From: Planctomycetota bacterium
Lineage (GTDB): Bacteria > Planctomycetota > Brocadiia > Brocadiales > Brocadiaceae
Assembly (NCBI GenBank): GCA_016188675.1
Contig: JACPHJ010000093.1
Coordinates: 62,001-126,000, forward strand
DNA length: 64,000 nucleotides
Direction of reading: 5' to 3'
In this document: positions 27,727 through 51,942 of the stretch, in pieces
Numbering within the stretch: the stretch's first letter is position 1
Layout of the letters: each line of letters begins with the position of its first letter
Program-made: the position numbers and the translations under genes
The notes under the pieces: model-generated
The model's input: the letters and a program-made list of their open reading frames with translations, nothing else
Told to the model about the DNA's origin: nothing
Database searches by the model: none

Positions 27727-28554
27727 TTGTCTTACTGTATAGAAACACAAAGCCTCACAAAAAGATACCCGGTAATAAGAGGATACGGCAGTTTATTCCT
27801 GCACCCTTTCAGAAGAAAAGAATTCACCGCCCTTAATAACGCGACACTTGCAATAGAAAAGGGCGTATTGTTCGGCCTTCTTGGGCAAAATGGGGCAGGC
27901 AAAACGACCCTCACAAAGATACTCTGTACCCTGGTCTTCCCTACCTCAGGAAAAGCGCTGGTAAATGGGTTTGATGTTTCAAAGGACGGCGGGAAGATTA
28001 GAAGGATCATTGGGTGCGTGGTAGGCGATGACAGGAGCTTTTACTGGAGGCTCACGGGCAGGCAGAATCTGAGATTTTTTGCACGGCTGAATAATCTCAC
28101 GGGCCGGGAAGCGGAAACGAGAATAAATGGCCTTCTGGAGACTTTGGAACTCACCACTGATGCCGACAGGATGTTTAAGGATTATTCAACTGGCATGAGG
28201 CGAAAAGTCGCAATAGCAAGGGGGCTTCTGACCAACCCTGAAATTATTTTCATGGACGAACCAACAAACGGCATAGACCCTGTTACATCGCGTAAATTGA
28301 GGAGGTTTATCCGTGAAAAATTAGTGCTGAAAGAGAAAAGGACTGTCATATTTGTCACCCATAACTTGCATGAGGCTGAGGAATTGTGTGACCGGGTGGC
28401 CATTCTCCACAAGGGAGAAATAAAGTTTACCGGGACGGTAAGTGAACTGAAAAAAGAATTTGCTTCAGGAAAACAATACATAGAGAAAGAACTTTCGCTG
28501 GGAGAAGTATTTTCGAGGATAGTAGACCCCGAAATTCTTCCGGCAGAAAGGTAA
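27727..28554 (+). CDS. ABC transporter ATP-binding protein
   Basis: 275 residues, TTG start with AAGGA eight bases ahead. Walker A is GQNGAGKTT near residue 54, the signature is YSTGMRRKVAIARGLL, Walker B is IIFMDEPTNGIDP near 175 and the switch histidine follows in FVTHNLHE. This is the ABC-2/NatA-DrrA type that drives export. The permease gene begins nine bases after its stop, so the two form one exporter. Substrate unknown; polysaccharide, lipid or a peptide are possible. Confidence 0.93.
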   Translation: MSYCIETQSLTKRYPVIRGYGSLFLHPFRRKEFTALNNATLAIEKGVLFGLLGQNGAGKTTLTKILCTLVFPTSGKALVNGFDVSKDGGKIRRIIGCVVGDDRSFYWRLTGRQNLRFFARLNNLTGREAETRINGLLETLELTTDADRMFKDYSTGMRRKVAIARGLLTNPEIIFMDEPTNGIDPVTSRKLRRFIREKLVLKEKRTVIFVTHNLHEAEELCDRVAILHKGEIKFTGTVSELKKEFASGKQYIEKELSLGEVFSRIVDPEILPAER

Positions 28555-28563
28555 TTTATAGAT

Positions 28564-29376
28564 ATGGCATATATGAGAAAGGTCTTTGCCTTTGTCCTGC
28601 GCGATATTATAAATGAAACGAGCTATAAATTTTCGTTTTTCACGCAGCTTGCCGGAATAATTGTTTCAACCACAATATTTTTCTTTCTCTCTAAGCTTTT
28701 GGGAAACGCCGGTGTATCTTATCTGAAGCCGTACAAGGGAAACTACTTTTCATTTATCCTTATAGGGATAGCTTTTTTTAATTATCTCAGAGTCGCTACA
28801 GAGGGGTTATCCAAAAGTATCAGGGAAGGACAGATGCTGGGAACCCTCGAGGCAATGCTTGTAACACAGACGGGAATTTCCACCATAATCATCTCTTCAT
28901 CCCTTTACGGCTTTATTTTTACCTCTTTTAAGGTTGCTGTCTATCTCTTACTGGGAATTTTAGTGTATGGGGTTGATATAGGCAATGCGAATGTGGTAGG
29001 GGCAGTTATCATACTCCTCCTTACCATAATCTCCTTTAATAGTCTGGGAATAATCTCTGCCAGTTTTGTCATGGTATTAAAAAAGGGCGATCCTATAAGC
29101 TGGATGATAACAAATGTTTCAGGGATAGTGGGAGGGGTGTATTATCCCGTCTCCGTACTGCCGTTGTGGCTTCAAAAGTTATCGTATTTACTGCCGATTA
29201 CTTACTCAATGGAAGGAATGCGACTTTCCCTGTTAAATGGATATTCCCTGAAATTATTATTGCCTAATATAATTGGATTGACGCTGTTTTCTCTCATCAT
29301 GACGCCGCTCAGTATTGCAGTGTTCGGGTATGCCGTAGGAAAGGCAAAGCAGGATGGCACCCTGACGCACTATTAA
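28564..29376 (+). CDS. ABC-2 type transporter permease
   Basis: 270 residues with about six membrane segments. PISWMITNVSGIVGGVYYPVSVLP is the ABC-2 signature region, here shown as VGGVYYPVSVLPLWLQKLSY. It pairs with the ATPase just upstream. No substrate-binding protein is present, which agrees with an exporter. In the ~320 bases after it I see no gene; they hold copy b of the 55-bp element. Confidence 0.9.
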   Translation: MAYMRKVFAFVLRDIINETSYKFSFFTQLAGIIVSTTIFFFLSKLLGNAGVSYLKPYKGNYFSFILIGIAFFNYLRVATEGLSKSIREGQMLGTLEAMLVTQTGISTIIISSSLYGFIFTSFKVAVYLLLGILVYGVDIGNANVVGAVIILLLTIISFNSLGIISASFVMVLKKGDPISWMITNVSGIVGGVYYPVSVLPLWLQKLSYLLPITYSMEGMRLSLLNGYSLKLLLPNIIGLTLFSLIMTPLSIAVFGYAVGKAKQDGTLTHY

Positions 29377-29698: not shown

Positions 29699-30781
29699 AT
29701 GTTTTATCGAGGAATGATAATGTTTATGATGTTTTTGATGGTATGCACTTTAGGTGTTACTTATGGTGTAAATGCGCATGCGGGGGCTATTCGGTCGGGT
29801 TTTAACAGTAACTCATTACCTAGCAATGATGATAGTTCAACAAGCCTTGTATCAATTGGTTTTTTTGTTAACTTTTTTGGAAGCAACTATACGGATCTCT
29901 ACATTAACAACAATGGCAACGTAACGTTCGATAGTGCGCAGTCCACCTATACACCTTATGGTTTGGTGAGTACAAGCCGGGTAATTATCGCCCCCTTCTT
30001 TGCAGATGTAGACACAAGAGGCTCTGGTTCTGGCGTTGTTACTTACAGCTACGGCGCCGGTTCTGTTGATGGGCGTAATGCATTCGGGGTGAATTGGATT
30101 GACGTTGGTTATTATAGTGCTCATGTAGACAAGCTTAACAGTTTTCAGCTTATCCTTATAGACCGTTCTGACATAGCGCCGGGTGATTTCGACTTCGAGT
30201 TTAATTACGACAAGGTTCAATGGGAAACTGGGGATGCCAGCAGCGGAAGTGGCGGGTTAGGCGGTAATTCCGCCAGGGTTGGTTACTCTAACGGCACTGG
30301 CGATCCCGGAACTTACTATGAACGATCCGGCTCTGGCGTTCCCGGCTCATTCCTCGATTCCAATTCATCAACAGGGTTGATTTATAATAGCCTCAATAGC
30401 AGCGTATCTGGAAGGTACTTATTTCAGGTGCGTAATGGTGAAGTAACGGTTGTCGATTTGGTCTCCTTTACAGCAGAAGGAGATAGCAATGGCAATGTTG
30501 CCCTGAACTGGGAAACCGCGGCGGAAGTAAATAATGCAGGATTTAACATTTATCGTTCAAAACACAAGGATAGTGCATACACAAAGATTAACGACGAACT
30601 TATTGATAATAAAGGCAGTGAAACAGAAGGTGCAAGGTATAGCTTTGAGGACGCACCTGGCAGGGGCAGCTTCTACTATAAGCTGGAAGATGTGGACACA
30701 AATGGGACAAAGACCATGCACGGGCCGGTAAAGGTGCGGGTAAGAAACGGAGGGAGTGAGGCGAGGAAAAGTAGAGTCTAG
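29699..30781 (+). CDS. Secreted nidogen-like protein with shared C-terminal domain
   Basis: 360 residues. A signal peptide (MFMMFLMVCTLGVTYGVNAHA) is followed by a NIDO-like domain, with TDLYINNNGNVTFDSAQSTY, VIIAPFFADVDTRG and FGVNWIDVGYY at residues ~60-150. The last ~105 residues are the shared domain: LVSFTAE, LNWETAAEVNNAGFNIYRS, FYYKLEDVDTNG, TMHGPVKVRV and a tail GSEARKSRV. NIDO domains occur in extracellular adhesion proteins. The ribosome site is strong (AAGGAGGAGGGG). After the stop is a purine-rich flank also found behind four sister genes. Confidence 0.85.
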   Translation: MFYRGMIMFMMFLMVCTLGVTYGVNAHAGAIRSGFNSNSLPSNDDSSTSLVSIGFFVNFFGSNYTDLYINNNGNVTFDSAQSTYTPYGLVSTSRVIIAPFFADVDTRGSGSGVVTYSYGAGSVDGRNAFGVNWIDVGYYSAHVDKLNSFQLILIDRSDIAPGDFDFEFNYDKVQWETGDASSGSGGLGGNSARVGYSNGTGDPGTYYERSGSGVPGSFLDSNSSTGLIYNSLNSSVSGRYLFQVRNGEVTVVDLVSFTAEGDSNGNVALNWETAAEVNNAGFNIYRSKHKDSAYTKINDELIDNKGSETEGARYSFEDAPGRGSFYYKLEDVDTNGTKTMHGPVKVRVRNGGSEARKSRV

Positions 30782-31547: not shown

Positions 31548-31757
31548 ATGACAATGACAGACGAAAACAAAGAAATGGTTACGATAAGACACGACTCCTC
31601 CACTCTGAACTGCGCCAAAGGTTCTTCTGTAAAAGATCATTCATCTTTCCAGGATAAAAAAAACGAATTATTGCGGCAAATGACGGTATTGCTTTTATTT
31701 AGTCTGGATCTAAAAGTCGAAATCAGAAATGATGAGAGGAAAATGGGTGTTATATGA
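31548..31757 (+). CDS. Small hypothetical protein
   Basis: 69 residues, polar N-terminal part (MTMTDENKEMVTIRHDSS) and a short hydrophobic stretch (LLRQMTVLLLFSL). Its stop overlaps the start of the beta-helix gene as ATGA, which supports real translation and coupling. No family is recognised. One cysteine. It could be a chaperone or leader ORF for the following large gene; its ribosome site is weak. Confidence 0.4.
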   Translation: MTMTDENKEMVTIRHDSSTLNCAKGSSVKDHSSFQDKKNELLRQMTVLLLFSLDLKVEIRNDERKMGVI

Positions 31758-34753
31758 ATATGAAGAAATATTGTGCCGGTATTTTTTTATTGTGTTTGTG
31801 TTTATTTACCGTTTCCAAAACTGCCTTTTCCGCAGGACCAACCTATCACAGCGGCTATATCTCAAGCGATGAGACATGGTATGCATCAGGTAACCCCCAT
31901 ATCATAAACGGCGATGTAATAGCAAGGTCTTCTTCCTCGAGTTATGGGGCGACAGCGACATTGACTATCGAGGCGGGATGTGAGGTGAAGTTTAATCCGG
32001 GAACCGGACTATTTATCGGAACCGGCAGTTATGTCGACTATTACCGCGGCGCACTCAATGCGCAGGGCACCAGCGGCAGCCCCATCACCTTTACCTCTAA
32101 CGCCACCACTCCATCCGCAGGAGACTGGAAAGGCATCTATTTTTATAACGGAACGTACGATGGTGGTACGATACTGAGCTACTGCACGGTAGAATATGGA
32201 GGAAACACCTATTCTTCTAACATGTATTTCAGTAATGCCTCACCCACCATTCAGAATTGTACGATACAGAATTCCAGTGGTTATGGCATCTATTGCAACG
32301 ATTATTCAGCCCCGACTATTACAAATAATATCTTTAACAATAATGCCACATATCCGATAAGTATGAATCCGGATTATGTAGATACCACGTCAGGCAATAC
32401 GGGGAGCGGCAACGGGACGGATGCAATTCTGGTACGGAGTGGATATGTAGATTCAAATGCCACGTGGGTAGACCAGGGATTGTTCTATTTTATTCATGGA
32501 AACGTAACGGTGAGGTCTTCTTCCGGGAACTATCTGGCGACTGCGACATTGACCATAAATCCTGGCTGTGAAATAAAGTTCAACACCGGCACCGGGCTAT
32601 TCATTGGGAACAACAGTTATACCGATTATTATCGCGGCGCACTCAATGCGCAGGGTACCAGCGGCAGTCCCATCATCTTTACCTCTAACGCAGCTACCCC
32701 TTCAGCAGGAGACTGGCAAGGCATCTATTTTTATAATGGGACGTATGACGGAGGAACGATACTGGATTATTGTACAGTAGAATATGGAGGCCATACGTAT
32801 AATTCCAACATTTACTGTAATAATTCCTCTCCTATGATAAAAAACAGCACCATCCAGAATAGCAGCGCTAATGGCATATTTCTGACAAGCAGCTCAAACC
32901 CTCCAATTGGAGGAACCGGCAATGGCAATACCATTACCAATAACAGTACGTATGGAATCTACTGTAATTCTACAACCCCGGTTCCTAACGTTACAGATAA
33001 CACTATTACCACCAACGGTACCGCCATGCGGGTAGGTCCGTACATGAACCTCACAAATAATATCTGTACAGGAAACACCAATAATGTCATAGAAGTAATC
33101 GGAGGATATGTCGATGGAGACAATATCTGGAGAGTTCAAAATGGCATACCATATAATGTTCTGGGAGACGTAACGGTAAGGTCTTCTTCCGGAAGCTATC
33201 TGGCGACAGCGACATTGACTATCGATGCGGGATGTGAGGTAAAGTTTAATCCGGGAACCGGACTATTTATTGGTAACAACAGTTATGCCGATTATTATCG
33301 CGGCGCACTCAATGCGCAGGGTACCAGCGGCAGCCCCATCATCTTCACCTCTAACGCCACCACTCCATCCGCAGGAGACTGGAAAGGCATCTATTTTTAT
33401 AACGGAACGTACGATGGCGGCACGACACTGAGCTACTGCACGGTATCATACGGAGGATACGCCTATAATGCCAATTTGTATTTCAATAACGCCTCCCCCA
33501 CCATCCAGAATTGTACGATACAGAATTCCAGTGGTTATGGCATCTATTGCAACGATTATTCAGCCCCGACTATTGCAAACAATATCTTTAACAATAATGC
33601 CACATATCCGATAAGTATGAATCCGGATTATATAGATACCACATCAGGCAATACGGGGAGCGGCAACGGGACGGATGCAATTCTGGTACGGGGCGGATAT
33701 GTATATTCAAATGCCACGTGGGTAGACCAGGGATTGTTCTATTTTATTTATGGAGATGTAACAGTGAGGTCTTCTTCTGGAAGCTATCTGGCAACTGCGA
33801 CATTGACCATAAATCCTGGCTGTGAAATAAAGTTCAATACCGGCGCCGGGCTATTCATTGGGACCAGCAACGCCGATTATTACCGTGGCGCCCTCTATGC
33901 GCAGGGTACCAGCGGCAGTCCCATTGCCTTTACCTCCGGTGCGGCTACTCCCTCGGCAGGTGACTGGAAGGGCATCTATTTTTATAACGGGACGTATGAC
34001 GGAGGTGCGATACTGAGCTATTGCACCATAGAATACGGAGGCTACTCCTTCCCATCTTCTAATATTTACTGTAATAACGCTTCTCCTGCCATTCAAAATT
34101 GCATCATAAGTAAATCCAGCAATTACGGCGTGTATTCAACAGGCAGCAGTTCGACGCCGTCAATTACCTGCTCTGCACTAAAAGAAAATTCGTACGGTGT
34201 TTACGCTACTTCTGGTTCCAAGCCGTCCATAAGCAATTGCAATATTACGAATAACTCAACCTACGGGGTTTACAACACAGGCGCCCCCACCTTGACTGCT
34301 GAAAACAACTGGTGGGGCGATGCCAGCGGACCTTCCGGCGTAGGAGCAGGAACGGGAGATGCAGTCAGCAATTATGTAGATTATGACCCATGGCTGGCGT
34401 CATCTCAATCCTGTGTTCCAACCATTATCGAACTGGTATCGTTCACGGCAAAGGCGGATGATGACGGCAACGTTATCATTCGTTGGGAAACGGCGTCTGA
34501 AATTGACACCGTGGGGTTCAATCTTTACCGCGCCAGACAGAAAAATGGAACATATGAGAAGATCAACAATAATACAATCGCCTCCGAAGGCAGTGATGTT
34601 GAAGGCGCTAATTACCGTTTCGAAGATAATAAACCAGGCTGGGGCAGTTTCTATTACAAGATTGAGGACGTTGATTCTTACGGCGTAAAGACCATGCACG
34701 GTACTGTAAAGGTCAGGGTGAAGTTCGGAGATAACGCTGAGAGGAGAAGATGA
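31754..34753 (+). CDS. Large secreted beta-helix protein with shared C-terminal domain
   Basis: 999 residues. A signal peptide (YCAGIFLLCLCLFTVSKTAFS) is followed by a right-handed beta-helix of four large repeats. Each has ATLTI[ED]/[N]PGCEVKFN-like text, YYRGALNAQGTSGSPI, AGDWKGIYFYNGTYDGG and short N-rich turns such as NNWWGDASGPSG near the end. Repeats 1 and 3, and 2 and 4, match best. The C-terminal ~105 residues are the shared domain (LVSFTAKADDDG, WETASEIDTVGFNLYRA, FYYKIEDVDSYG, MHGTVKVRV, tail NAERRR). The fold is common in adhesins and polysaccharide-binding or -cleaving proteins; no enzyme site is seen. Confidence 0.88.
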   Translation: MNMKKYCAGIFLLCLCLFTVSKTAFSAGPTYHSGYISSDETWYASGNPHIINGDVIARSSSSSYGATATLTIEAGCEVKFNPGTGLFIGTGSYVDYYRGALNAQGTSGSPITFTSNATTPSAGDWKGIYFYNGTYDGGTILSYCTVEYGGNTYSSNMYFSNASPTIQNCTIQNSSGYGIYCNDYSAPTITNNIFNNNATYPISMNPDYVDTTSGNTGSGNGTDAILVRSGYVDSNATWVDQGLFYFIHGNVTVRSSSGNYLATATLTINPGCEIKFNTGTGLFIGNNSYTDYYRGALNAQGTSGSPIIFTSNAATPSAGDWQGIYFYNGTYDGGTILDYCTVEYGGHTYNSNIYCNNSSPMIKNSTIQNSSANGIFLTSSSNPPIGGTGNGNTITNNSTYGIYCNSTTPVPNVTDNTITTNGTAMRVGPYMNLTNNICTGNTNNVIEVIGGYVDGDNIWRVQNGIPYNVLGDVTVRSSSGSYLATATLTIDAGCEVKFNPGTGLFIGNNSYADYYRGALNAQGTSGSPIIFTSNATTPSAGDWKGIYFYNGTYDGGTTLSYCTVSYGGYAYNANLYFNNASPTIQNCTIQNSSGYGIYCNDYSAPTIANNIFNNNATYPISMNPDYIDTTSGNTGSGNGTDAILVRGGYVYSNATWVDQGLFYFIYGDVTVRSSSGSYLATATLTINPGCEIKFNTGAGLFIGTSNADYYRGALYAQGTSGSPIAFTSGAATPSAGDWKGIYFYNGTYDGGAILSYCTIEYGGYSFPSSNIYCNNASPAIQNCIISKSSNYGVYSTGSSSTPSITCSALKENSYGVYATSGSKPSISNCNITNNSTYGVYNTGAPTLTAENNWWGDASGPSGVGAGTGDAVSNYVDYDPWLASSQSCVPTIIELVSFTAKADDDGNVIIRWETASEIDTVGFNLYRARQKNGTYEKINNNTIASEGSDVEGANYRFEDNKPGWGSFYYKIEDVDSYGVKTMHGTVKVRVKFGDNAERRR
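31915..34421 (+). repeat. Internal 1,254-bp duplication in the beta-helix gene
   Basis: Sequence starting near 31915 is repeated near 33169 at a constant offset of 1,254 bp (418 codons), for example at 32237/33491 and 32431/33685. DNA identity is high over long stretches, so the copy is recent or kept alike by gene conversion. Confidence 0.8.
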
Positions 34754-34918: not shown

Positions 34919-34996
34919 TTGTGTTTTCGAAAACCAGACGCTTTTGGCTATATACAGGCGAAATAACAATACGATGAACCTTTGACAGGAGCTAAT

Positions 34997-35890
34997 ATGA
35001 AGAAACCAATAGTACGGAGAACGGCATTAATATTTTTTTGTACTGCAATAATAATCTGCTGTGCCGGTTTTCCTGTTGTGACTGCCGCTCTGCCACAGCC
35101 GGTGTATGGTACGGCAACCGTGGACGGTGATATCAGTGAATGGAATCTGGCGGAAGATGGAGGCGGCGATTTTTTTGCAAACATGTACCGTGCCGCAAAG
35201 TCCAGCAAGAAAGTAGAATCGAAACTGTACCTTCGGTATGACTGCACGATAAATACACTTTACGCCTTGGTACTACCCGTGTCGGGGGTAAGTGTAATTG
35301 CGTCGCCGGGCGATGCCTTTGTAAAGCTTGGAAATAGCAATAAGCTTGTTGATGGCAATGACGGGGACAACGGTACCCCGCCTGATTTTGCCTGGTACAA
35401 TCTGAGCGGTGGTATTGCTTCGGGATGGGAGGCGTCCGCATCGCTTGCACCCGACGCTTATCCCAATTTTAATGTACATACGCAGGTTGTGGATGGTGGA
35501 GAACAAACCTCAGCCGTCGAAGACAGGGCAATCAGCCTGGAGATCGTTTGCGCTCCTACCGCAGTTGAACTGCTTAATTTTACTGCCGAAACGGATGGCG
35601 ATGGTGTCGTTACTTTGCAATGGGAAACGGCCACGGAAATAGATAACGCCGGCTTTAACCTCTACCGTTCAAGAATGAAAGACGGTAATTATAAGAAGAT
35701 CAATGAGGGTCTCATTGTTTCAACAGGAGGCCAGACAGAAGGCGCAAGCTACAGATACGAGGATATCCCGCCCGCCAGTGGAACATATTATTACAAACTG
35801 GAGGATGTTGATTCAAACGGTGCTAGTGCAATGCACGGACCGTTGAAGATGAAAGTAAGAAGCGGAGGAAGTGAGGCAAGGAGGAGGTAG
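34997..35890 (+). CDS. Secreted protein with shared C-terminal domain
   Basis: About 297 residues from the ATG at 34997, which has AGGAG ahead; an upstream TTG is unlikely. A signal peptide (TALIFFCTAIIICCAGFPVVTA) precedes a ~150-residue domain with TVDGDISEWNLAEDGGGDFF and LYLRYDCTINTLYALVLPV, like carbohydrate-binding-type modules that begin with V/IDG-x-ISEW. The C-terminal domain is LLNFTAETDGDG, WETATEIDNAGFNLYRS, YYYKLEDVDSNG, AMHGPLKMKV, tail SEARRR. Its 3' half is nearly identical in DNA to that of the next surface gene. Confidence 0.83.
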   Translation: MKKPIVRRTALIFFCTAIIICCAGFPVVTAALPQPVYGTATVDGDISEWNLAEDGGGDFFANMYRAAKSSKKVESKLYLRYDCTINTLYALVLPVSGVSVIASPGDAFVKLGNSNKLVDGNDGDNGTPPDFAWYNLSGGIASGWEASASLAPDAYPNFNVHTQVVDGGEQTSAVEDRAISLEIVCAPTAVELLNFTAETDGDGVVTLQWETATEIDNAGFNLYRSRMKDGNYKKINEGLIVSTGGQTEGASYRYEDIPPASGTYYYKLEDVDSNGASAMHGPLKMKVRSGGSEARRR

Positions 35891-36094: not shown

Positions 36095-36188
36095 TAATGT
36101 ATCAAAATGATTAATATATTTGAGGAATTTTTGACCAATTTTGTGATTGGCAACAATTTTATTTTTTGAGAAACGCGGGGGTATACGT

Positions 36189-37169
36189 ATGCAGCAAAAG
36201 CGAGTTTGTTTTCCGTTGGTTTTCATGTTGATGATAAGCTTCTTTGTGGTCGTATCTGCTTTTACCGGACGGCTGTCATGGGCAGATGAAATAACTGCTT
36301 TTTCTGATGATTTCGAATCAGGAGCGCAACCTGAATGGTCGAGTACATCTGTTAGCACAACACCGGCAAGTGAAAGAAAATTTCTCGGGAGGTTTACTAA
36401 TAATACTGTAAGCCTTTCGCTTTCCGGTCTTCCTTCCCACTCAAACATCACGATTGAATTAGATCTTTTTATCATACACTCATGGGATGGCAATCCCTGG
36501 AACTGGGGACCTGATATCTGGGGTATCGATATCAATGGTAGCACGACACTGAAAAAAACAACCTTTAGCAACGGGTACGGACCGGGGCAGGCATACCCGG
36601 GTGATTATACCAATAGTTCCACCTATGATTCAAATTCGGCCAGAACCGGAGCAGTTGAAAACAATACCCTTGGATACGGATCGGGAGGGTGGGGAGATTC
36701 GGTTTATCACTTAAGTTTTACATCATCACATTCCGACAGCAGTGTAGCATTTAACTTTTTTGGTCAAAATTTACAAGCTGTGAGTGATGAAAGCTGGGGA
36801 TTGGATAATGTGGTGGTTAAGATTGAACCAGTTTCAACCGCTGTTACCTTATCTTCTTTCTCCGCTGAGGCAGGCGGTGATGGTAGTGTTACTTTAACGT
36901 GGGAGACGGCCACGGAAATTGATAACGCAGGATTTAACCTCTACCGCTCAAGACTTAAGGATGGCAATTATAAGAAGATCAACGGCGAACTCATCAGCGC
37001 AACTGGCAGTGAAACGGCAGGCGCAAGCTACAGCTACGAAGATACCCCGCCTGCCAGTGGAACGTATTATTATAAACTGGAAGACGTGGACACAAACGGC
37101 GCAAGCGCCATGCACGGGCCTGTAAAGGTGAAAGTGAGAAGCGAAGGGAGTGAGGCAAGGAGGAGATAA
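36189..37169 (+). CDS. Secreted jelly-roll-like protein with shared C-terminal domain
   Basis: About 326 residues from the ATG at 36189, with GGGGG ahead; the frame is open 42 bases further up. After the signal peptide (PLVFMLMISFFVVVSAFTG) comes a ~190-residue domain with DDFESGAQPEWSS, NITIELDLFIIHSWDGN and WGLDNVVVKI, like concanavalin/LamG-type modules with a choice-of-anchor look. The C-terminal domain follows (LSSFSAEAGGDG, WETATEIDNAGFNLYRS, YYYKLEDVDTNG, AMHGPVKVKV, tail SEARRR). It is probably displayed at the surface. Confidence 0.83.
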   Translation: MQQKRVCFPLVFMLMISFFVVVSAFTGRLSWADEITAFSDDFESGAQPEWSSTSVSTTPASERKFLGRFTNNTVSLSLSGLPSHSNITIELDLFIIHSWDGNPWNWGPDIWGIDINGSTTLKKTTFSNGYGPGQAYPGDYTNSSTYDSNSARTGAVENNTLGYGSGGWGDSVYHLSFTSSHSDSSVAFNFFGQNLQAVSDESWGLDNVVVKIEPVSTAVTLSSFSAEAGGDGSVTLTWETATEIDNAGFNLYRSRLKDGNYKKINGELISATGSETAGASYSYEDTPPASGTYYYKLEDVDTNGASAMHGPVKVKVRSEGSEARRR

Positions 37170-37331: not shown

Positions 37332-37463
37332 ATGGCGGTGAAAGAAAAAAAGTTGCCCGAATACGAAGCACCTGAAGTAACAACTTATACAGATGAAGAG
37401 ATTTTTGAGATGTTAGGACCGGCTCATACAGGGTCTGGACCTGGCAGTGGTAGTGTATTGTGA
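37332..37463 (+). CDS. Candidate RiPP precursor peptide
   Basis: 43 residues, starting at the ATG behind AAAGGGGG. The leader-like part MAVKEKKLPEYEAPEVTTY has a Y-x-x-P motif (YEAP, residues 11-14), as recognised by PqqD-type leader binders in lasso and related systems. Then come TDEEIFEMLGPAHTG and a small, flexible C-terminus GSGPGSGSVL, rich in Gly and Ser. A terminator lies 27 bases downstream, then the HPr-kinase-like gene. The C-terminal serines are possible kinase targets. There is no Cys, and the only acidic residues are upstream, so a classic lasso ring is doubtful. It could instead be a small secreted or anchor peptide. Confidence 0.72.
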   Translation: MAVKEKKLPEYEAPEVTTYTDEEIFEMLGPAHTGSGPGSGSVL

Positions 37464-37489
37464 TAGTAAATATTCGGGCAATAACCAAT

Positions 37490-37532
37490 AGGGGCTTGCT
37501 ATGGTTTTTACCAGTAAGCCCCTTTTCTTTTT
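37490..37532 (+). terminator. Intrinsic terminator after the precursor peptide
   Basis: A hairpin of GGGGCTTGCT and AGTAAGCCCC is followed by TTTTCTTTTT. It lies 27 bases after the peptide's stop. It would make the peptide transcript far more abundant than the downstream genes, as in many RiPP operons. Confidence 0.85.
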
Positions 37533-37542
37533 ATAAAATAGT

Positions 37543-38703
37543 ATGTCTGCTAGATCATTAACAGAAAAGACTTCTCTGTATCAAATAAACTTACGGTTTT
37601 TTGATGTTGACGTCACTATCAAATCGGACTGTAAAAGTTTTGTCGATTTGTTTTCTCAAATGTACCATAAATTTCTTGTAGATAGGCTACAAACGGACTC
37701 CAGATCAACAATAGAATTTGCTTTATTGGCCGAGCAGGATGATACATATAACGCACCGGTTATCGTTATCAATAATGAGATATGGCCGCTCAGTAACGCC
37801 AGATTATTTGACGGGTATGCCTATGAATGCGTCCTCAGTACGATAATCGCCAGGATTCAGAGTCATTTGTTACTCCACGCCGGAGTTGTTTCCCGGAATG
37901 GACAGGGTGTAATCATACTTGCAGATAGCGGATTCGGAAAGACGACACTGGTTATCGAGCTGGTGAAGCGCGGGTTTAAGTTTCTCTCTGATGAAATGGC
38001 CGCATTGGGAAGAACTGACGGGAGAGTACACCCATTCCCCAGATGTCTCTGGATTCGGAAAGGAACATTGGAACTGACCGGCATTGCTCAAAAATCCACA
38101 AATGCCCCACGATGGATGGGAAAAACGCTCCTGGATATCGAAGACATTGTGCCGGGCAGTTATAGGGAGACAACAAATGTTAATCATGTAATTATACTGC
38201 ATGATGATGCCAGGCCAGAGAATGGATTGCAGGACATAAGTGTATTAGTTGAACGGCTTGACAATTCGCTCCTTGCTTGCATAAATGAGATTGAAGGCGT
38301 TGAAAATGTGCGGGTGGAAAACATGCATGGTTATCCTCTGATAAAGTGTACAGCTGTTCGACCAACTTCTACCTTGGCTAAAATAGAATTATTTTGCAGG
38401 GAATTTCAGACACTGATGCTGAATGCTGGCAAAGGAAAAGAACATTATCCATCGTTTTCTTCCCCTGCAAGGCTTGAAGATATCCCTAAAAGTGAGGCAG
38501 TAGTATCGCTCCTGAAACGATTTCAGGGGGGATATATGTCGAAGGTGTTGCATGACGAATTTAGCGGGAACTCGATACCATTATTTTTAGAACTCTCTGC
38601 GATGATAGAAGGGGCTAAATGCTACCGGCTTTCTGTTGGACCGCTCAAGGATATGGCGGATTTAGTATGCGGCGTGGTTGGTGTGCAACATCAAGTTAAA
38701 TGA
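37543..38703 (+). CDS. HPr-kinase-like protein (RiPP/PqqD-associated type)
   Basis: 386 residues. A P-loop ADSGFGKTT lies at ~127-135, with the conserved His before it (LLHAGVV, H112) and SDEMAALG (~148-155) after it, in the order seen in HprK-type kinases. The first ~100 residues and the last ~150 do not match HPr kinase, so it is a divergent relative. Similar kinases act on lasso-peptide precursors (PadeK/ThcoK), phosphorylating a C-terminal serine. That is known for the family and inferred here from the neighbouring peptide with GSGS near its end. No HPr gene is nearby. Confidence 0.85.
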   Translation: MSARSLTEKTSLYQINLRFFDVDVTIKSDCKSFVDLFSQMYHKFLVDRLQTDSRSTIEFALLAEQDDTYNAPVIVINNEIWPLSNARLFDGYAYECVLSTIIARIQSHLLLHAGVVSRNGQGVIILADSGFGKTTLVIELVKRGFKFLSDEMAALGRTDGRVHPFPRCLWIRKGTLELTGIAQKSTNAPRWMGKTLLDIEDIVPGSYRETTNVNHVIILHDDARPENGLQDISVLVERLDNSLLACINEIEGVENVRVENMHGYPLIKCTAVRPTSTLAKIELFCREFQTLMLNAGKGKEHYPSFSSPARLEDIPKSEAVVSLLKRFQGGYMSKVLHDEFSGNSIPLFLELSAMIEGAKCYRLSVGPLKDMADLVCGVVGVQHQVK

Positions 38704-38796
38704 GAATCCAGCGGTTGTCTAACTGCTCTGTTTCCAACTTTGAAATTTCTATACGTTTAATTAGGGTTTTAAAAGTTAAAACCCAATGACTTTTTA

Positions 38797-38864
38797 CCCA
38801 CCCCTTTTCCCCTCCCAAGAGGGGACTTCTTAAATTCCCCTCTTGGGAGGGGAAAAGGGGTGGG
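38797..38864. repeat. Palindromic repeat, CCCCTCTTGGGAGGGG type
   Basis: Outer arms CCCACCCC and GGGGTGGG, with CCCCTCCCAAGAGGGG and CCCCTCTTGGGAGGGG inside. It is followed by a CCCCTTTTAGCAAAGGGGG inverted repeat near 38895. The rest of 38704-39036 shows no gene. Confidence 0.7.
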
Positions 38865-39036
38865 TTCCTTCCCGGGAGTGGCTTTCTTGCATTCCCCTTT
38901 TAGCAAAGGGGGAGCAAGGGAGATTTGGTTACTTAGTTGTTGTCGCTGACTATAGATTCACAGTCGTTCTTTATATTATTTTAAAAATATAGTTTATCTG
39001 TGTTTATCCGAGGCCGATGCAATTTTAAGGAAAAAT

Positions 39037-40095
39037 ATGATACCCGAAAACAAACTCCTCTTTCTCTGTACGAGGCAAAAATTTACTCCCGAACATAAAA
39101 ATATCCTGATTGCCCTGTACAGAGAGAAAAAAATTAAATGGGACGTCGTTTGGACCACCGCTCGACTACACGGCGTAGCGCCGTTGGTTTACAGGAATCT
39201 GCTGACATGTTTTCGTGAAGGCCTTAAAATACCACAGGAAGTAAATGAACGGTTCAAGCTTTGTTATTACAGCTCTATTGCCGCAGAAAAGCCAAGGTCT
39301 GAGAGGATAAAAGAGATACTGGCATTGGCAGATAACATGTCGGCTGATGTTATGCTGATAAAAGGGGTCGCTATGGATATCCTTGTGTATGAACACCCAT
39401 GGTACATGCTGCCCGGTGATATTGACCTGATTGTCATATCCAGGAAAAATGGCGTAACTGATAAAGAAAAAGAGGCGATTGTATCATCAATTCGCCGTCC
39501 GGGAATTGAATGTCAGTATCTCAATCACCACGATGTTGATATGGGAGGTTTGCTGCCGATAAACTTCCAGAATATGTGGGATAATGCAACAAGGATTGAT
39601 TTTATGGGATATGGCGCGTATGTGGTGTCGCCGGAAGACATGCTCCTGACTACCTGTATAAATAGTTGCAGGAAGAGATTTTTCAGGCTGAAATCCTTAT
39701 GCGACATTGCAGAAATTATAAATAAATACCGTAATTTAAACTGGGAAAAATTCGTCCGGGACGCATGGGCATATCAATGCAATAACATTGTTTACACGGC
39801 CCTTTTGATCACCAGAATGACGCTTGGCGCTGACATGCCTCAAGAGGTACTTGAGGAATTATCATACAGCGTATTAAAAAGCAAAATAAGCTACTGTTTG
39901 GCGCTCTGTTTTAGCCGGAACGTCCCCTTAACTTTCTTCTATCCGTACTTTGAAAGAGACACAGAAAAGAAGGTACTCAGAAAGATAAACATCTCATTAA
40001 TCTTACCCTACATAACGTATACACATTATCAGCTACGCGGGAAAGTAAATTCCGTTCAAAATACCGAACACAAGAGGTTTTTATTAAAATGGTAG
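39037..40095 (+). CDS. Nucleotidyltransferase-family protein (RiPP-associated type)
   Basis: 352 residues. MLIKGVAMDILVYE followed by MLPGDIDLIVISR near residues 118-146 matches the NTP_transf_5-type fold, where GDIDL supplies the metal-binding aspartates. Proteins of this family sit in lasso-peptide and PqqD/HprK-like clusters, where they may add nucleotide or phosphate groups to a peptide. A ribosome site AAGGAA is present. The start is 333 bases from the kinase stop, with repeats between. Target unknown. Confidence 0.82.
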   Translation: MIPENKLLFLCTRQKFTPEHKNILIALYREKKIKWDVVWTTARLHGVAPLVYRNLLTCFREGLKIPQEVNERFKLCYYSSIAAEKPRSERIKEILALADNMSADVMLIKGVAMDILVYEHPWYMLPGDIDLIVISRKNGVTDKEKEAIVSSIRRPGIECQYLNHHDVDMGGLLPINFQNMWDNATRIDFMGYGAYVVSPEDMLLTTCINSCRKRFFRLKSLCDIAEIINKYRNLNWEKFVRDAWAYQCNNIVYTALLITRMTLGADMPQEVLEELSYSVLKSKISYCLALCFSRNVPLTFFYPYFERDTEKKVLRKINISLILPYITYTHYQLRGKVNSVQNTEHKRFLLKW

Positions 40096-40112
40096 TTAAA
40101 CAGGTGCAAAAA

Positions 40113-43100
40113 ATGAAACATTTACAACAAAATATTCTGTGGAGCGTATTTTTTTCCACAGCCGTGTTTTTGATACTGGAAGGTGTTTATACCTCTCCGG
40201 TAACTGCACTGCCGTTATCTGAAGGACATCTGAAGGTATTACGGTCGGATGAACAGGTGATCGAACTGGAATTAAACGTTGATGATTTTCAGGTTGAAAC
40301 GATAAAACACGGCGGGCAAACGTATCAAAGGCTCGTTATTCCGGATATGGCGCAAAGCAACAGGCCCGGAATGCCGCAGATACCCATATATGGCACGCTG
40401 GTGGGTATTCCATGCATCGAAGGGGTTTCTGTGGAAATCCTGGATGCCGGATATGAAATGTTGAAGGGGTATCGTTTACTGCCATCACCGGAACCAAAGG
40501 TGATGGGAGACGTACTTACAGAGGGGGCGGAGGAAACCTTTGTTATTGATCGGAAGGTTTATACAACCGATGCCTTCTATCCTGGTAAGGCAGTAGAAAT
40601 AGGTTATACCGGCTATGTGCGGGATCAGGCGGTCGCCCAGGTGCAGTTCTATCCGGTACAGTATAACCCCGTTACCGGTGAGATATGTCTCTATCACCGC
40701 ATCCTTGCAAGGATTACATGGGATACGCCTCCATCCTCAAGTCATGACAGGACACAAAATGTTCATCCTGCTTATGAAAATGTATTAAAAAACACACTGA
40801 TAAACTATCATTCCCTGAAGCGTCCCTCACCCGCACATGTGGAAACCCACCACAGTAACCAAAGCGCTAAAAGTAGCGACAGTGGGAATGCAGTCACAAA
40901 TCTTAAAATCAGCGTTACTGAAAACGGCATATACAAAATTACGTATGACGACCTTACTTCCGCCGGGCTGGATTTAAGCGGTATAGACCCTTCAACAATC
41001 AGCATGAGCAATCGGGGAACCGATACCCCTATTCATGTGTATGGAGAAGCTGACGGTAAATTTGACACCTCTGATTACGTCCTTTTCTATGGCAGCGCTA
41101 CCGCAGGCATTTATACAAATGAAAATGTATACTGGCTGACAACGGGTGGGAAAAACGGCCAACGGATGAATACCCGCGATGGAATTCTTCATGGCAGTTC
41201 CACAACACCAACGTATTTTCCCGCCACGCTCCATGCGGAGGAAGACAGCCATTACTGGCAGGCAATACCCAATGGCAAAGGGAAAGACCACTGGTTCTGG
41301 GGTGATAAACTAAGCGCCCCTGCATCGGGCGAGTATACCTTTGTGGTTGATAATATCCTTTCAACAGACGGGACGGCAACCGTCCGGGTGCGATTGATGG
41401 GTTACACCAATGACAAAAGTGTTTCTCCTAACCACCATACAAAGATTTACCTTAACGGCACTGAGATAGACAACCGGCAGTGGGACGGCCAGATTATTTA
41501 CGACCATGAGGTATCCATTTCCCATTCATATTTGAACAACGGAACGAACACGGTCAAGATCGAAACCGTTGGCGATACCGGCGCCAGCACCGATCAGGTG
41601 TTTGTCAACTGGATAGAGGTTGATTATTTTGACACCTACACGGCGGAAGACGATAGCCTCTCGTTTGGCGTTCCTGAGTCCGGCGACTTTCATTTCAGGG
41701 TAACGGGATTCAGCAGCAGTGACGTGGAAGTCTTCGATGTAACCGATCAGGGAAATCCGGTGCGTATTACAAATACAACCGTTGTGAAAGAGGATGGCGC
41801 ATATACGCTGAAGTTTGAAGACACTGCGCATTCAGACACGCGGTATCTGGCGCTGACGTTGGAGCAGCGCAAATCAGCCGCAAGTATCAAGGCAGATCAG
41901 GCATCATCCTGGAAGTCGTCAGACAATGGGGCAGATTATATCATCATTACCCATGAAGATTTCTATGATGAATCGTTAGCGCTGGCAAATCACAGGAACG
42001 AGCGTGGATTAAGGGTAGTAACGGTTAAGGTTGAGGACATCTACGATGAGTTTAACTACGGCATATTTGACCCACAGGCCATTCGTGACTTTCTGTCGTA
42101 TGCGTACAGCAACTGGGTTGCCCCTGCACCTGTGTATGTTTTACTTGTTGGCGATGCGTGTCAGGATTACAAGGATAATCTCGATACTGGTACGGTCAAC
42201 TACGTACCATCCCAGATTGTTGAGACAGACCTGCTTGGAGAGACGCCTTCCGACAACTGGTTTGTTCTTGTAAGCGGCGATGACATCCTGCCGGACATGT
42301 ATATCGGGAGATTGAGCGCCCAGACGGAATCGCAGGTGGAAGACATGGTGAACAAGATTATATATTACGAACAGCACCCCCCGGAAAATTCGTGGAGCAA
42401 AAATGCCTTATTTGTGGCGGATGATGACGACTCGTCATTCGAAGACATTTCTGAAGAACTTGCGGGCATTTTACCTGAAGGCTACAAGGCGAATAAGGTT
42501 TACGTGGGTGATTATACATCGGATGAAAACCCTACAACGAACATCCAGAAGTATATCAACAAAGGGTGCCTGCTAGTGAATTATACGGGACACGGGGCGG
42601 TGGAGCGATGGGGATTGTGGAATGATAACAGCGAGGCGATCTTTAACAATTCCAGCGTGTCGGCGCTGGAAAATACTCAAAGATATCCTGTGGTGACGGT
42701 GGCAAATTGCCTGAATGGTTTTTTCCCCGGATACAAAACAAAGGTATCAATGGCAGAGCAGTTCCAGCGCCTTCAGAACAGGGGCGCTGTGGCCGTCTGG
42801 GCGCCTACGGGACTGAGTTACTCTTCCGGCCACCGGCTGCTCATGAAGGCGTTTTACGAGGCAATCTTCAACGACGGCAAGTATGGACTTGGCGCTGCTA
42901 CTACAGCAGCCAAAATAAATACCTATGAGCAAAACAGTTACTGGGGTGAACTGGTGGAGATGTTTGTGCTCTTCGGCGACCCCGCAATGGAATTGGGAGT
43001 ATCTTCCGGCTCAACATCGCAACTAACACTCATTTCTCCGAACGGCGGGGAGACCATAAATTCAGGATCAACCGTTTCCGTTCAGTGGGAAGCCCCCGAA

Positions 43101-43316
43101 GACATGGTTGCGTTTGCCCTTAAATATTCACTGAACAAAGGGCGTTCGTGGAAAAAGATAACGGGGAAGGCGACGGGCGCAAGTTACGACTGGAATGCGC
43201 CATCTGTAAAAGGGAATAAGAAGAAGTGCCTTGTGCAGATAACGGGATTTAACGCATCAGGCGAAAAAACGCAAGAAGACGTATCCGATGCGATGTTTAC
43301 GATAAAAGGGCGATAA
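40113..43316 (+). CDS. C25-family peptidase, gingipain/PorU-like
   Basis: About 1067 residues from the ATG at 40113 (AGGTG ahead). A signal segment (WSVFFSTAVFLILEGVY) precedes a C25-type propeptide, then ISVTENGIYKITYDDLTSAG, a motif typical of PorU/gingipain N-domains. The catalytic pair is H827 in NYTGHGAVERWG and C866 in TVANCLNGFF. A C-terminal sandwich has LISPNGGETINSGSTVSVQW. It lacks the shared Fn3-like domain, so it may act on proteins that have it. It begins inside the end of the nucleotidyltransferase gene's transcript. It could be simply a secreted protease. Confidence 0.88.
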   Translation: MKHLQQNILWSVFFSTAVFLILEGVYTSPVTALPLSEGHLKVLRSDEQVIELELNVDDFQVETIKHGGQTYQRLVIPDMAQSNRPGMPQIPIYGTLVGIPCIEGVSVEILDAGYEMLKGYRLLPSPEPKVMGDVLTEGAEETFVIDRKVYTTDAFYPGKAVEIGYTGYVRDQAVAQVQFYPVQYNPVTGEICLYHRILARITWDTPPSSSHDRTQNVHPAYENVLKNTLINYHSLKRPSPAHVETHHSNQSAKSSDSGNAVTNLKISVTENGIYKITYDDLTSAGLDLSGIDPSTISMSNRGTDTPIHVYGEADGKFDTSDYVLFYGSATAGIYTNENVYWLTTGGKNGQRMNTRDGILHGSSTTPTYFPATLHAEEDSHYWQAIPNGKGKDHWFWGDKLSAPASGEYTFVVDNILSTDGTATVRVRLMGYTNDKSVSPNHHTKIYLNGTEIDNRQWDGQIIYDHEVSISHSYLNNGTNTVKIETVGDTGASTDQVFVNWIEVDYFDTYTAEDDSLSFGVPESGDFHFRVTGFSSSDVEVFDVTDQGNPVRITNTTVVKEDGAYTLKFEDTAHSDTRYLALTLEQRKSAASIKADQASSWKSSDNGADYIIITHEDFYDESLALANHRNERGLRVVTVKVEDIYDEFNYGIFDPQAIRDFLSYAYSNWVAPAPVYVLLVGDACQDYKDNLDTGTVNYVPSQIVETDLLGETPSDNWFVLVSGDDILPDMYIGRLSAQTESQVEDMVNKIIYYEQHPPENSWSKNALFVADDDDSSFEDISEELAGILPEGYKANKVYVGDYTSDENPTTNIQKYINKGCLLVNYTGHGAVERWGLWNDNSEAIFNNSSVSALENTQRYPVVTVANCLNGFFPGYKTKVSMAEQFQRLQNRGAVAVWAPTGLSYSSGHRLLMKAFYEAIFNDGKYGLGAATTAAKINTYEQNSYWGELVEMFVLFGDPAMELGVSSGSTSQLTLISPNGGETINSGSTVSVQWEAPEDMVAFALKYSLNKGRSWKKITGKATGASYDWNAPSVKGNKKKCLVQITGFNASGEKTQEDVSDAMFTIKGR

Positions 43317-43426
43317 TGGCTCACCGTAAAGGCACGGAGGTTTCAAAGGAACCAGTCCTACATTTATAAATGGACAATTTCGTGGCCTTTCGCGGGCTGT
43401 TTCAGATGAATTTGAAAGGAGATGAT

Positions 43427-45142
43427 ATGAGAAATATAACAATGCGGTTATTTTACTTACTTACGATGATTTTCATTATTACACCTAAGATCTCCGCCTT
43501 AACGTGGGAAACAACAACGGTTGATAGCGGCGGCAATGTTGGCATTGACAACGACATCGCTGTTGATTCGTCAGACAAAGTACATATCAGCTATTACGAT
43601 TCCACCAATAAAAACCTTAAATATGCCACAAATAAGGATGGTTACTGGGCAGCCACAACCATTGGCAGCAGTACGGCAGACCTGGGGAAACGCACGTCAA
43701 TAGCAATAGACTCACAGGGCAAGGCGCATATCTCGTATTTTGACAATACAAGAAACAAAGTCATGTACGTTACCAATGGTGGAGGTTCGTGGGGAACGAC
43801 TACTATTGACTCTGCTAGTACGGATAATGGCTATAGTTCAATTGCAATAGATTCACTGGACAGCGTGCATATCAGTTACTCCTCTCAGGAACTTAAATAT
43901 GCCACAAACAAAACAGGCGCATGGGGGACAACGACTGTGGATAGTTCTGAGCCGTATGGCAACAAATACAACTCAATAGCGATTGATTCTTCTGACAACA
44001 TGCATATCAGTTATCGTGAGTATGAGGGCAACTTTATTCGAAGTCGTCTGAAATATGCGACTAACAAGACAGGCTTATGGGAAAAAATATATATTGAATA
44101 TCCCGGTTCTACAGGAACAAATGTTGGCGTGCGTAATTCAATAGCGGTGGATTCTGCCGACAACGTACATATCAGCTATGAACAAGCAGTTCTCAGGTAT
44201 GCCACCAATAAAACAGGAGAATGGGAAAAGACAACCATTTATAATGACACTGGCAATAATCATACTGAACCTAGCTCAATAGCATTGGATTCATCGAATA
44301 ATGTGCATATAAGCCACAATAATTATTCTGGTTCCGCTGGTAAACTCCTGTATACCACAAACAAAACTGGGGCTTGGGTAACAACAACACTGGATGATAC
44401 TGTTACTGTGGATGCAGTAACATCCATAGCAATAGACTCATTAGACAATATTCATATTAGCTACATCGACAGTACAAACGATGACCTTAAGTATGCAAAG
44501 ATATTTGGACCGCCAAAGGTAACAACCGAATCCGCAACGAATTTGACATCCACAACTGCCACATTGAATGGTGCCGTGCATCCCAACGGTTTGTCCACGT
44601 CTGTATGGTTCGAATATGATACCGATAGCGGTTCGCCTTACACACATTCAACCGCCTCACAATCTGTAAACAGCGGTGATTATATATCCGTAAATGAAGG
44701 CACAAGCGGATTACAGTCAAATACAACGTATTATTACAGGATAGCCGCATCAAACGGTGACGAGACGTCCTATGGGGACGAATTGTCGTTTAACACATTG
44801 TCTGAACCTACAGCCATTGAGATTATTTCATTTACTGCTGAGACAGATGGTAGCGATGCCGTAACACTCAAATGGGAAACAGCTACAGAAATTAACAATA
44901 CCGGTTTCAACCTCTATCGCTCCAGGATTAAAGACAACAATTACAAAAAGATTAACAATGGACTCATAGCCGCAAGAGGTAGTGAAACCGAGGGTGTTAG
45001 TTACAGCTATGTGGATACACCGCCTAGTCACGGGACGTATTATTACAAGTTGGAGGATGCAGATGTAAACGGTGTAAAAACATTGCATGGTCCGGTGAAA
45101 GTGAGGATAAGAGGCGAAGGAAGCGAGGCGAGGATGAGATGA
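43427..45142 (+). CDS. Secreted beta-propeller/Fn3 protein with shared C-terminal domain
   Basis: About 571 residues from the ATG at 43427 with AAAGGAG ahead. After the signal (LFYLLTMIFIITPKISA) come about seven repeats of the type SIAIDSxDxVHISY-LKYATNKxGxW, likely a propeller. Then a fibronectin-III-like module (ESATNLTSTTATLNGAVHP, GLSTSVWFEYDTDSG) and the shared C-terminal domain (IISFTAETDGSD, WETATEINNTGFNLYRS, YYYKLEDADVNG, LHGPVKVRI, tail SEARMR). The Fn3 module is closely like ones in the 52-kb gene. Probably a surface-binding protein. Confidence 0.85.
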   Translation: MRNITMRLFYLLTMIFIITPKISALTWETTTVDSGGNVGIDNDIAVDSSDKVHISYYDSTNKNLKYATNKDGYWAATTIGSSTADLGKRTSIAIDSQGKAHISYFDNTRNKVMYVTNGGGSWGTTTIDSASTDNGYSSIAIDSLDSVHISYSSQELKYATNKTGAWGTTTVDSSEPYGNKYNSIAIDSSDNMHISYREYEGNFIRSRLKYATNKTGLWEKIYIEYPGSTGTNVGVRNSIAVDSADNVHISYEQAVLRYATNKTGEWEKTTIYNDTGNNHTEPSSIALDSSNNVHISHNNYSGSAGKLLYTTNKTGAWVTTTLDDTVTVDAVTSIAIDSLDNIHISYIDSTNDDLKYAKIFGPPKVTTESATNLTSTTATLNGAVHPNGLSTSVWFEYDTDSGSPYTHSTASQSVNSGDYISVNEGTSGLQSNTTYYYRIAASNGDETSYGDELSFNTLSEPTAIEIISFTAETDGSDAVTLKWETATEINNTGFNLYRSRIKDNNYKKINNGLIAARGSETEGVSYSYVDTPPSHGTYYYKLEDADVNGVKTLHGPVKVRIRGEGSEARMR

Positions 45143-49763: not shown

Positions 49764-49848
49764 TCGAGTAAGGTTGGATTGAGGAGTGAAACTCAACATT
49801 TCTCTAAAGGAGTTCTTTAAATTGTTCATCAGTAAGACCGGAGGATTG

Positions 49849-50400
49849 ATGAAAATGTCATTAAGGCTGAAACGTAAGGTGCTGATAGAATTAGCAGTTA
49901 TTGCAATCATCATTATTACAGGCATAGCCTCATTTGCCGGGACAATAAACTACACATACGACGAACTCAATCGTCTTGTAAAGGTTAAATATGAAAATGG
50001 CACTATCATAACCTACACGTATGATGCAGCCGGAAATATACTGAGTACCACTGTTGTTGACAATACATCAACACCAACGGCTATAACACTACTATCTTTT
50101 ATTGCCGAGGCAGATGAAAAGGGTTTAGTTACTTTGACTTGGGAAATGGCAACAGAGGTTAATAATGCCGGTTTCAATATCTACCGTGCAAGACTCAAAG
50201 ATGGCAAGTATGCCCGCATCAATAGCGCCCTTATCCCCACCAATGGTGATTCAACCGCAGGGGCTACATACAGCTTTGTTGATACACCGGGGAAAGGGAC
50301 TTTCTACTATAAACTGGAGGATGTAGACACAAAAGGTGTAAAAACAATACACGGGCCGGTGAAAGTGAGAGTAGAGGCGAAGGAAGTGAGGCGAAGGTAG
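49849..50400 (+). CDS. Mini YD-repeat protein with shared C-terminal domain
   Basis: About 183 residues from the ATG at 49849, behind GGAGG. A hydrophobic signal-like segment (VLIELAVIAIIIITGIASFAG) is followed by one and a half YD repeats (INYTYDELNRLVKVKYENG, ITYTYDAAGNILS). Then comes the shared C-terminal domain (LLSFIAEADEKG, WEMATEVNNAGFNIYRA, FYYKLEDVDTKG, IHGPVKVRV, tail KEVRRR). It may be the remnant of a second RHS protein fused to this domain. It lies 85 bases after the big RHS gene. Confidence 0.8.
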   Translation: MKMSLRLKRKVLIELAVIAIIIITGIASFAGTINYTYDELNRLVKVKYENGTIITYTYDAAGNILSTTVVDNTSTPTAITLLSFIAEADEKGLVTLTWEMATEVNNAGFNIYRARLKDGKYARINSALIPTNGDSTAGATYSFVDTPGKGTFYYKLEDVDTKGVKTIHGPVKVRVEAKEVRRR

Positions 50401-50833: not shown

Positions 50834-50840
50834 AAAAGCT

Positions 50841-51056: not shown

Positions 51057-51372
51057 AAGAGTCGTCCTTTTTAAACTTTTAATAAAATATCAATATTTAT
51101 GTGAATTTATTTCTAATGTAAATACTGTCCTTTGTCAAGAAATATCTGACATAATTGGAGGTCAATAAAGGTAATATACGGAGACCAAAAATGCCGGTTT
51201 TACAACTACTGTAGGAAAGAGGCAAGTAGTTGCAGGGTAGATGCTGGAAGTAAGATGGGTAAAGCAGGAATTGAGTTTTTCAGTTAAGAATTTCTTTTCC
51301 GGGTATTTTTGCTAAAAATGTTAAAATTATCCTTGGAAAATGCTGTGTGACCAAGATCATGGATGTTTTATT

Positions 51373-51942
51373 ATGGCCGATATCCAACAGAAATCCATAC
51401 AAGACGCCGTAATAAAAACAATGCTCAATGTCTGGGCGCAGACAAAAGAACGGCATTACGTTTCTATTGCCGGCAGAAGTATGCTGCCGCTGATCCTGGA
51501 TGGCGATTCCCTTCTGATAACGCACGGCTGCGATGGTATGAAGCGCGGCGATATTGTGGTGTTCCGGTGTAATGGCAGGCTTGTTGCGCATAGAGTAATC
51601 CGCAAAGAAATTGATAAGGAAAGCGGCGGTGTTACCTATATAACGAAGGGGGATAATGTATTTCAGTTCGACCCTCCGGTAGGTGAAAGTGAGATTATTG
51701 GACGCGTACTGGGTATACGGAAGGGAGAGAGGGAGATATTGTTCGATACGGCAGTCTGGCGGGCGATGGGGTGGGTCATTGCCGTTGGCACGGTAGTTAT
51801 TTCAAGGCCGTATTCATGGTGCCGTGATTTCACCGGAAGACTGCCAGGTTTTCGTTCACGACGTCATAGGAAGGTACTTAGCAGGCATATACAGACGCTT
51901 TTCTTGTGTATCCGAAAGGCCGTTTTTTTTATTTTCTGTTGA
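51373..51942 (+). CDS. Signal-peptidase-like S26/S24 peptidase (SipW type)
   Basis: About 189 residues from the ATG at 51373; an upstream ATG adds 11. The catalytic serine is in IAGRSMLPLILDGDSLLI near residue 35. GDIVVFRCNGRLVAHRVIRK places a histidine (HRV) where SipW/archaeal-type enzymes have it, and TYITKGDNVFQFDPPVG is the third box. One hydrophobic segment (GWVIAVGTVVIS) and a basic tail follow. It might cleave the peptide at 37332 or the shared C-terminal domains, but this is only inference from position. Confidence 0.85.
   Translation: MADIQQKSIQDAVIKTMLNVWAQTKERHYVSIAGRSMLPLILDGDSLLITHGCDGMKRGDIVVFRCNGRLVAHRVIRKEIDKESGGVTYITKGDNVFQFDPPVGESEIIGRVLGIRKGEREILFDTAVWRAMGWVIAVGTVVISRPYSWCRDFTGRLPGFRSRRHRKVLSRHIQTLFLCIRKAVFFIFC

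Follow-up and report, generated by a model that had tools for sequence, protein, structure and literature searches.

The window (the whole 64,000-nucleotide stretch of planctomycete DNA analysed here) probably encodes an LPP-like pathway for a linear phosphorylated RiPP that is coupled to surface proteins of one class. The observations are of gene content, conservation, co-occurrence, adjacency and catalytic residues (Table 1). The pathway is supported by purifying selection on the peptide, by co-occurrence of the kinase, SipW-like peptidase and PqqD-type genes, and by retention of the residues of the RRE, the SipW-like peptidase and the kinase. The set of modifying enzymes is already known, with a counterpart published as LPP. 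New here are the pairing of peptide genes with genes of surface proteins sharing an Fn3-like C-terminal domain (CTD), the PorU-like C25 gene in the cluster despite no SprA being found, and two types of peptide core. The parts listed in the initial annotation, namely a 43-aa ORF, a strong terminator, an HprK-like kinase, a PF14907 nucleotidyltransferase, and PqqD and SipW-like genes, were all recovered.

Table 1. Features of the cassette and its surroundings (window positions)
Feature	Position	Strand	Remarks
ABC transporter ATPase, possible exporter	27727..28554	+	orthologue near cassette in L072 and L091
ABC-2-type permease partner	28564..29376	+	PF01061 9e-15; orthologues near cassette in L072 and L093
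Surface protein, nidogen-like domain, Fn3-like CTD	29699..30781	+	
Discrete RRE / PqqD-type protein, 93 aa	30945..31226	+	PF05402 7e-10; N32, D70 kept
Surface protein, Fn3-like CTD	31754..34753	+	
Surface protein, Fn3-like CTD	34982..35890	+	
Surface protein, Fn3-like CTD, directly upstream of peptide gene	36147..37169	+	CTD ends 171 bp before matched peptide start
Precursor peptide gene, 43 aa, ATG at 37332	37332..37463	+	conserved family
Intrinsic terminator 3' of peptide gene	37490..37532	+	-21.5 kcal/mol, z = -4.3, then T run
HprK-like peptide kinase, 386 aa	37543..38703	+	TIGR04352 9e-19 (below cut-off); P-loop and FLSDE
Nucleotidyltransferase NTP_transf_5, 352 aa	39037..40095	+	PF14907 1e-27; GDIDL motif
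PorU-like C25 cysteine protease, 1075 aa, C25 propeptide	40089..43316	+	PF01364 1e-100; His835, Cys874 invariant
Surface protein, Fn3-like CTD	43370..45142	+	
Short RHS-repeat protein, Fn3-like CTD	49786..50400	+	
SipW-like signal peptidase, probable leader peptidase	51340..51942 (ATG also 51373)	+	TIGR02228; Ser47, His84, Asp105

The putative precursor peptide family

The peptide ORF is preceded by a GGGGG ribosome-binding site and encodes MAVKEKKLPEYEAPEVTTYTDEEIFEMLGPAHTGSGPGSGSVL, where a leader carrying YEAP and LGPA is followed by the short core HTGSGPGSGSVL. No Pfam or NCBIfam model matched the 43-aa peptide. Homologues from different genera are 34-73% identical, and the leader pN/pS is 0.15-0.18 among 42 distinct homologous leader sequences, nearly all of them from Brocadiales (anammox). 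Thus a chance ORF is excluded and, judged by its conservation, the ORF is a real gene; conservation of the ORF had been named beforehand as a check, which it passed. The first alignment, of 17 members, contains invariant P, T-Y-T, G and A positions. The leader segment is constrained and the last 7-13 residues vary; at the sequence level, this is how RiPP precursors divide into leader and core. The Gly/Ser-rich C-terminus pointed out in the initial annotation is specific to this species and is not a trait of the family.

Within the class, the peptide is confined to Brocadiales. It was matched in 21 of 59 relatives (15 full matches, five of a leader-only variant, one marginal), and there are one to eight copies per genome. 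One strict pattern, by which diverged forms would be missed, was run over 84,980 species genomes and produced 29 peptide loci. Apart from one Anaerolineales-binned contig, their titles are Brocadia, Kuenenia, Jettenia, Brocadiaceae or unnamed Planctomycetota. The window belongs to a genome of Brocadiales type; named genomes with the same genes are those of Ca. Brocadia, Kuenenia and Jettenia. A 6.1 kb contig from an Anaerolineales bin (L095, SOHZ01000154.1) holds CTD, peptide, kinase and C25 genes, by transfer or misbinning. The search of plasmids with the peptide gave a single match, at chance level.

Orphan pairs of peptide and PqqD genes, with no kinase or C25 orthologue, were observed in Jettenia-type (g6) and g4 genomes (L132, L133, L060, L099). 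In these peptides ELVRH or ELVQH replaces ELGPAH, and the C-terminus is different. A pseudogene origin by frameshift was rejected: other frames restore no full peptide and the variant C-termini are mutually similar, so that both decay and a different core are possible.

The terminator hairpin, scored against shuffled sequences, was overlooked by a simple scanner, presumably through its internal bulge. Terminators do not follow every peptide gene: a rough scan found them behind 11 of 42, several being weak. An inverted repeat with C-rich and G-rich arms, possibly a small repeat element, lies between the kinase and nucleotidyltransferase genes (38790-38925).

Predicted modifying enzymes and their counterparts in known systems

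The kinase scores below the cut-offs of both TIGR04352 (67.7 bits, curated cut-off 200) and Pfam Hpr_kinase_C (2e-7, 31.2 bits, cut-off 33.3); the P-loop and FLSDE are conserved among its orthologues. The nucleotidyltransferase gene is found in some related clusters and is absent from several. The PqqD-type gene lies 6 kb upstream of the peptide gene. In its product and homologues, N32 is retained in all proteins and D70 in seven out of eight; these are equivalents of LppB N33 and D70, which hold the Pro and Tyr of the leader (PMC13381572). The SipW-like gene is located 8 kb downstream of the C25 gene, and its product scores above the cut-off of TIGR02228, the archaeal/SipW-type signal peptidases (57.7 bits). 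The residues Ser47, His84 and Asp105 are invariant in the SipW-like proteins and have the counterparts S29, H68 and D93 in LppS (PMC13381572).

All 12 kinase-bearing genomes contain the peptide, three genomes have the peptide only, and 44 have neither (p = 4e-10, kinship ignored). The counts for the kinase with the SipW-like peptidase are 12/0/3/44, and with PqqD 12/0/5/42 (59 genomes, kinship again ignored). Absence calls are limited by draft assemblies. As presence and absence differ inside one genus (g11), the association of the kinase, SipW-like and PqqD genes with the peptide is not a single event. Co-occurrence of the peptide, PqqD, kinase and nucleotidyltransferase genes elsewhere, the other check named in advance, was indeed seen in other genomes.

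The closest counterpart is the LPPs (Popov et al. 2026, Nat Commun, PMC13381572), whose clusters encode an RRE, an HprK-like kinase, a SipW-like leader peptidase, an NTP transferase and an MsbA-like pump. The LPP kinase puts several phosphates on core Ser3; the LPPs were stated to be restricted to Bacillota, with no role assigned (PMC13381572). The lpp cluster of Paenibacillus alginolyticus and the window both contain a discrete RRE, an HprK-like kinase, a SipW-like peptidase with Ser/His/Asp and an NTP transferase, and both lack a cyclase. A YxxPxV leader, polysaccharide genes nearby and one to several precursors are common as well. However, LPPs come from Bacillota and the window cassette from Planctomycetota, and of the LPP precursor motif YxxPxVLxHQxIxFETxxS the window peptide has YxxPxV only, without the HQxIxFET part. 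The LPP core has 45 residues, whereas cores of the window family have ~7-13; the LPP transporter is MsbA-like, whereas that of the window is of the ABC-2 type; and the CTD surface proteins and the PorU-like protease are features of the window. Since the transporter type and the full leader motif were tested and differ, formal membership in the LPPs is not established. By analogy, the cassette would work like an LPP cluster, and we call it LPP-like. The description of the RiPP as undescribed therefore holds only in part: the enzyme set has a published counterpart, and the half formed by the CTD and PorU-like proteins is the more unusual one.

Paeninodin-type phosphorylated lasso peptides share with the window the kinase, the nucleotidyltransferase, the discrete RRE and a YxxP/WxxP leader. 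However, no lasso B2 leader peptidase (PF13471) was found in the genome, on which ground a lasso peptide was rejected, and no macrolactam cyclase was recognised on reading the window ORFs. The gene content agrees with the initial annotation in its YxxP peptide, PqqD-type RRE, HprK-like kinase and nucleotidyltransferase, and in the lack of B2. The sets of HprK-related kinase A (TIGR04352) also combine PqqD, an HprK-like kinase and a PF14907 nucleotidyltransferase; the window kinase differs from them by its score. One such set, with a PF14907-like gene, is the second of its kind in the genome of the window (L039; G000 contig C124, ~24.6-28.1 kb of the contig), and it lacks the peptide family, CTD and C25. 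Anti-phage defence was rejected, as the kinase, the nucleotidyltransferase and the C25 protein all had no PADLOC match.

Two further observations concern export and envelope genes. In Kuenenia-type genomes (L134, L090, L093), a MacB-like ABC exporter set adjoins the peptide genes, which have THY cores in L134 and L090. An exosortase gene with an EpsI domain (22682-24364, minus strand) lies at the edge of the polysaccharide locus upstream of the cassette.

Surface proteins and the PorU-like protease

The window encodes six CTD proteins and one peptide. The CTD is confidently predicted to be an Fn3-like sandwich, which in many cases carries a disordered basic tail, and no T9SS sorting-signal family matched the CTDs scanned. 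Neither the domain shared by these six neighbouring proteins nor the PorU-like C25 gene had been remarked on in the initial annotation.

A CTD gene is situated less than 600 bp upstream, on the same strand, of 31 of the 51 peptide genes. In Ca. Brocadia carolinensis, seven of eight peptide genes, on separate contigs, follow a CTD gene at a distance of less than 600 bp (~0.006 expected by chance), and seven of eight are within 200 bp. When the peptides are divided into two core types, a grouping made after inspection of the data, only one of 13 T[HCS]Y cores has a CTD neighbour, compared to 30 of 36 other cores.

The start of the C25 gene overlaps the end of the nucleotidyltransferase gene. The closest relatives of its product are PorU and gingipains, and the best family is NF033707 (T9SS sortase PorU), matched over residues 272-976 (1e-98) with 331 bits, below the cut-off of 420. 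PorU and gingipains are also the top structural matches of the C25 model, which has low confidence (AlphaFold pLDDT 61), so that the PorU fold match counts only beside the sequence evidence. The window thus resembles the PorU and CTD cargo of Bacteroidota in having a C25 protease of PorU-like layout with His/Cys, and surface proteins that, like T9SS cargo, have a C-terminal beta-sandwich domain. However, the PorU match is below cut-off and the Fn3-like CTD matches no T9SS signal model. No SprA was detected in the genome (the control genomes also contained no positive above the cut-off), and the best PorV match in the genome scores 27.7 bits versus a cut-off of 90. A T9SS was therefore rejected.

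The counts for C25 with CTD are 13/1/6/39, and with the peptide 12/3/2/42 (59 genomes, kinship ignored), so C25 tracks CTD at least as well as the peptide. Two clusters (L092, L094) contain a TCY core, PqqD, the kinase and the SipW-like peptidase with neither CTD nor C25, which points to C25 as part of the CTD half. The peptide, PqqD, kinase and SipW-like genes are kept without CTD and C25 in G027 and in the second cluster of G028. Conversely, G030 has C25, the SipW-like peptidase and CTD proteins, with the peptide, kinase and PqqD undetected, and CTD proteins also occur in some genomes that lack C25. Thus the CTD/C25 half and the peptide half are separable.

A gene for a large protein with a TIGR03790 domain (52192-55851) adjoins the SipW-like gene. 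On the minus strand, a PIN-like protein gene and its small upstream partner (50444-51056) look by eye like a likely toxin-antitoxin pair.

Proposed pathway and alternative readings

Each enzymatic step of the proposed pathway is assigned by homology. The PqqD-type RRE would bind the YxxP part of the leader, and the HprK-like kinase would phosphorylate the short core, most likely at the near-invariant Thr in LGPA-x-T. This Thr sits where Ser3 of LPPs sits (FET|AQS versus LGP-AHT) if cleavage precedes that Ala. The SipW-like peptidase would cut off the leader in or next to LGPA. Cleavage before the Ala of LGPA and after it (GPA|) are equally possible; the latter fits the small-residue rule usual for signal peptidases. 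The nucleotidyltransferase, where present, would decorate the phosphate. Once mature, the peptide would have roughly 7-13 residues and may act at the cell surface together with the Fn3-like-CTD proteins, and the PorU-like C25 protease may process these proteins; the surface role of the peptide and the substrates of C25 are inferred from gene context only. Several points do not fit smoothly: the leader is unlike that of LPPs beyond YxxPxV, several clusters have no nucleotidyltransferase, each half can occur without the other, and there is one peptide for the six CTD proteins of the window.

In an extension of this pathway, C25 would cut the surface proteins at the CTD or close to it and ligate the C-terminus so created to the N-terminus of the phosphopeptide, freed of its leader. 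This peptide would then anchor the surface protein to envelope or matrix, in the way that PorU attaches T9SS cargo to A-LPS. The hypothesis that the PorU-like enzyme ligates a CTD protein to the peptide is consistent with the PorU-like match and fold of C25, with the common beta-sandwich of its presumed substrates, and with the pairing of CTD and peptide genes. Moreover, removal of the leader would leave the peptide with a free amine, and a group of this kind has been proposed for the PorU linker (PMC8545088). The CTD pairing and the PorU-like protease, both outside the argument of the initial annotation, make its idea of a surface-anchor peptide plausible. However, G030 has C25 and CTD without the peptide, the window has one peptide to six CTD proteins, the fold of the CTD is that of Fn3 and no T9SS sorting signal matches it, and the C25 model is of low confidence; on balance we consider this extension unlikely. 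A related reading is also unlikely: protein sorting independent of a T9SS, with a PorU-like transpeptidase that attaches surface proteins to a ribosomal phosphorylated peptide as anchor or tag. If true, it would mean that a RiPP is used as a protein-attachment group.

Two other readings dissociate the components. C25 could act on the peptide itself, as a second protease for maturation or trimming, with the CTD proteins as co-regulated neighbours only; the product would then be a secreted signal or resemble a bacteriocin. Two proteases are at work in several RiPP systems, and the counts of C25 with the peptide are compatible with such a role. However, the same leader is processed in second-type clusters (L092, L094) that have no C25, and C25 follows CTD at least as closely, making this role improbable. 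The small ORF could also encode a structural, regulatory or chaperone-like protein of surface-protein operons, with the kinase and PqqD acting on another substrate. The acidic "leader" is indeed the conserved part, the C-terminus is very short, and peptide and CTD genes are often bicistronic. However, the YxxPxV motif is accompanied by the RRE, the kinase and the SipW-like leader peptidase, co-occurrence with the kinase is strict, and clusters without CTD still have the peptide beside PqqD and the kinase. We regard this last reading as very improbable.

The LPP-like pathway places an enzyme logic published in 2026 as Bacillota-restricted in anammox planctomycetes. It also connects the peptide, through the order of the genes, with one defined class of surface proteins and with a PorU-like protease. 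Aggregation of anammox bacteria is driven by surface proteins (PMC7482068), and the function of the peptide becomes testable by proteomics of existing anammox enrichments.
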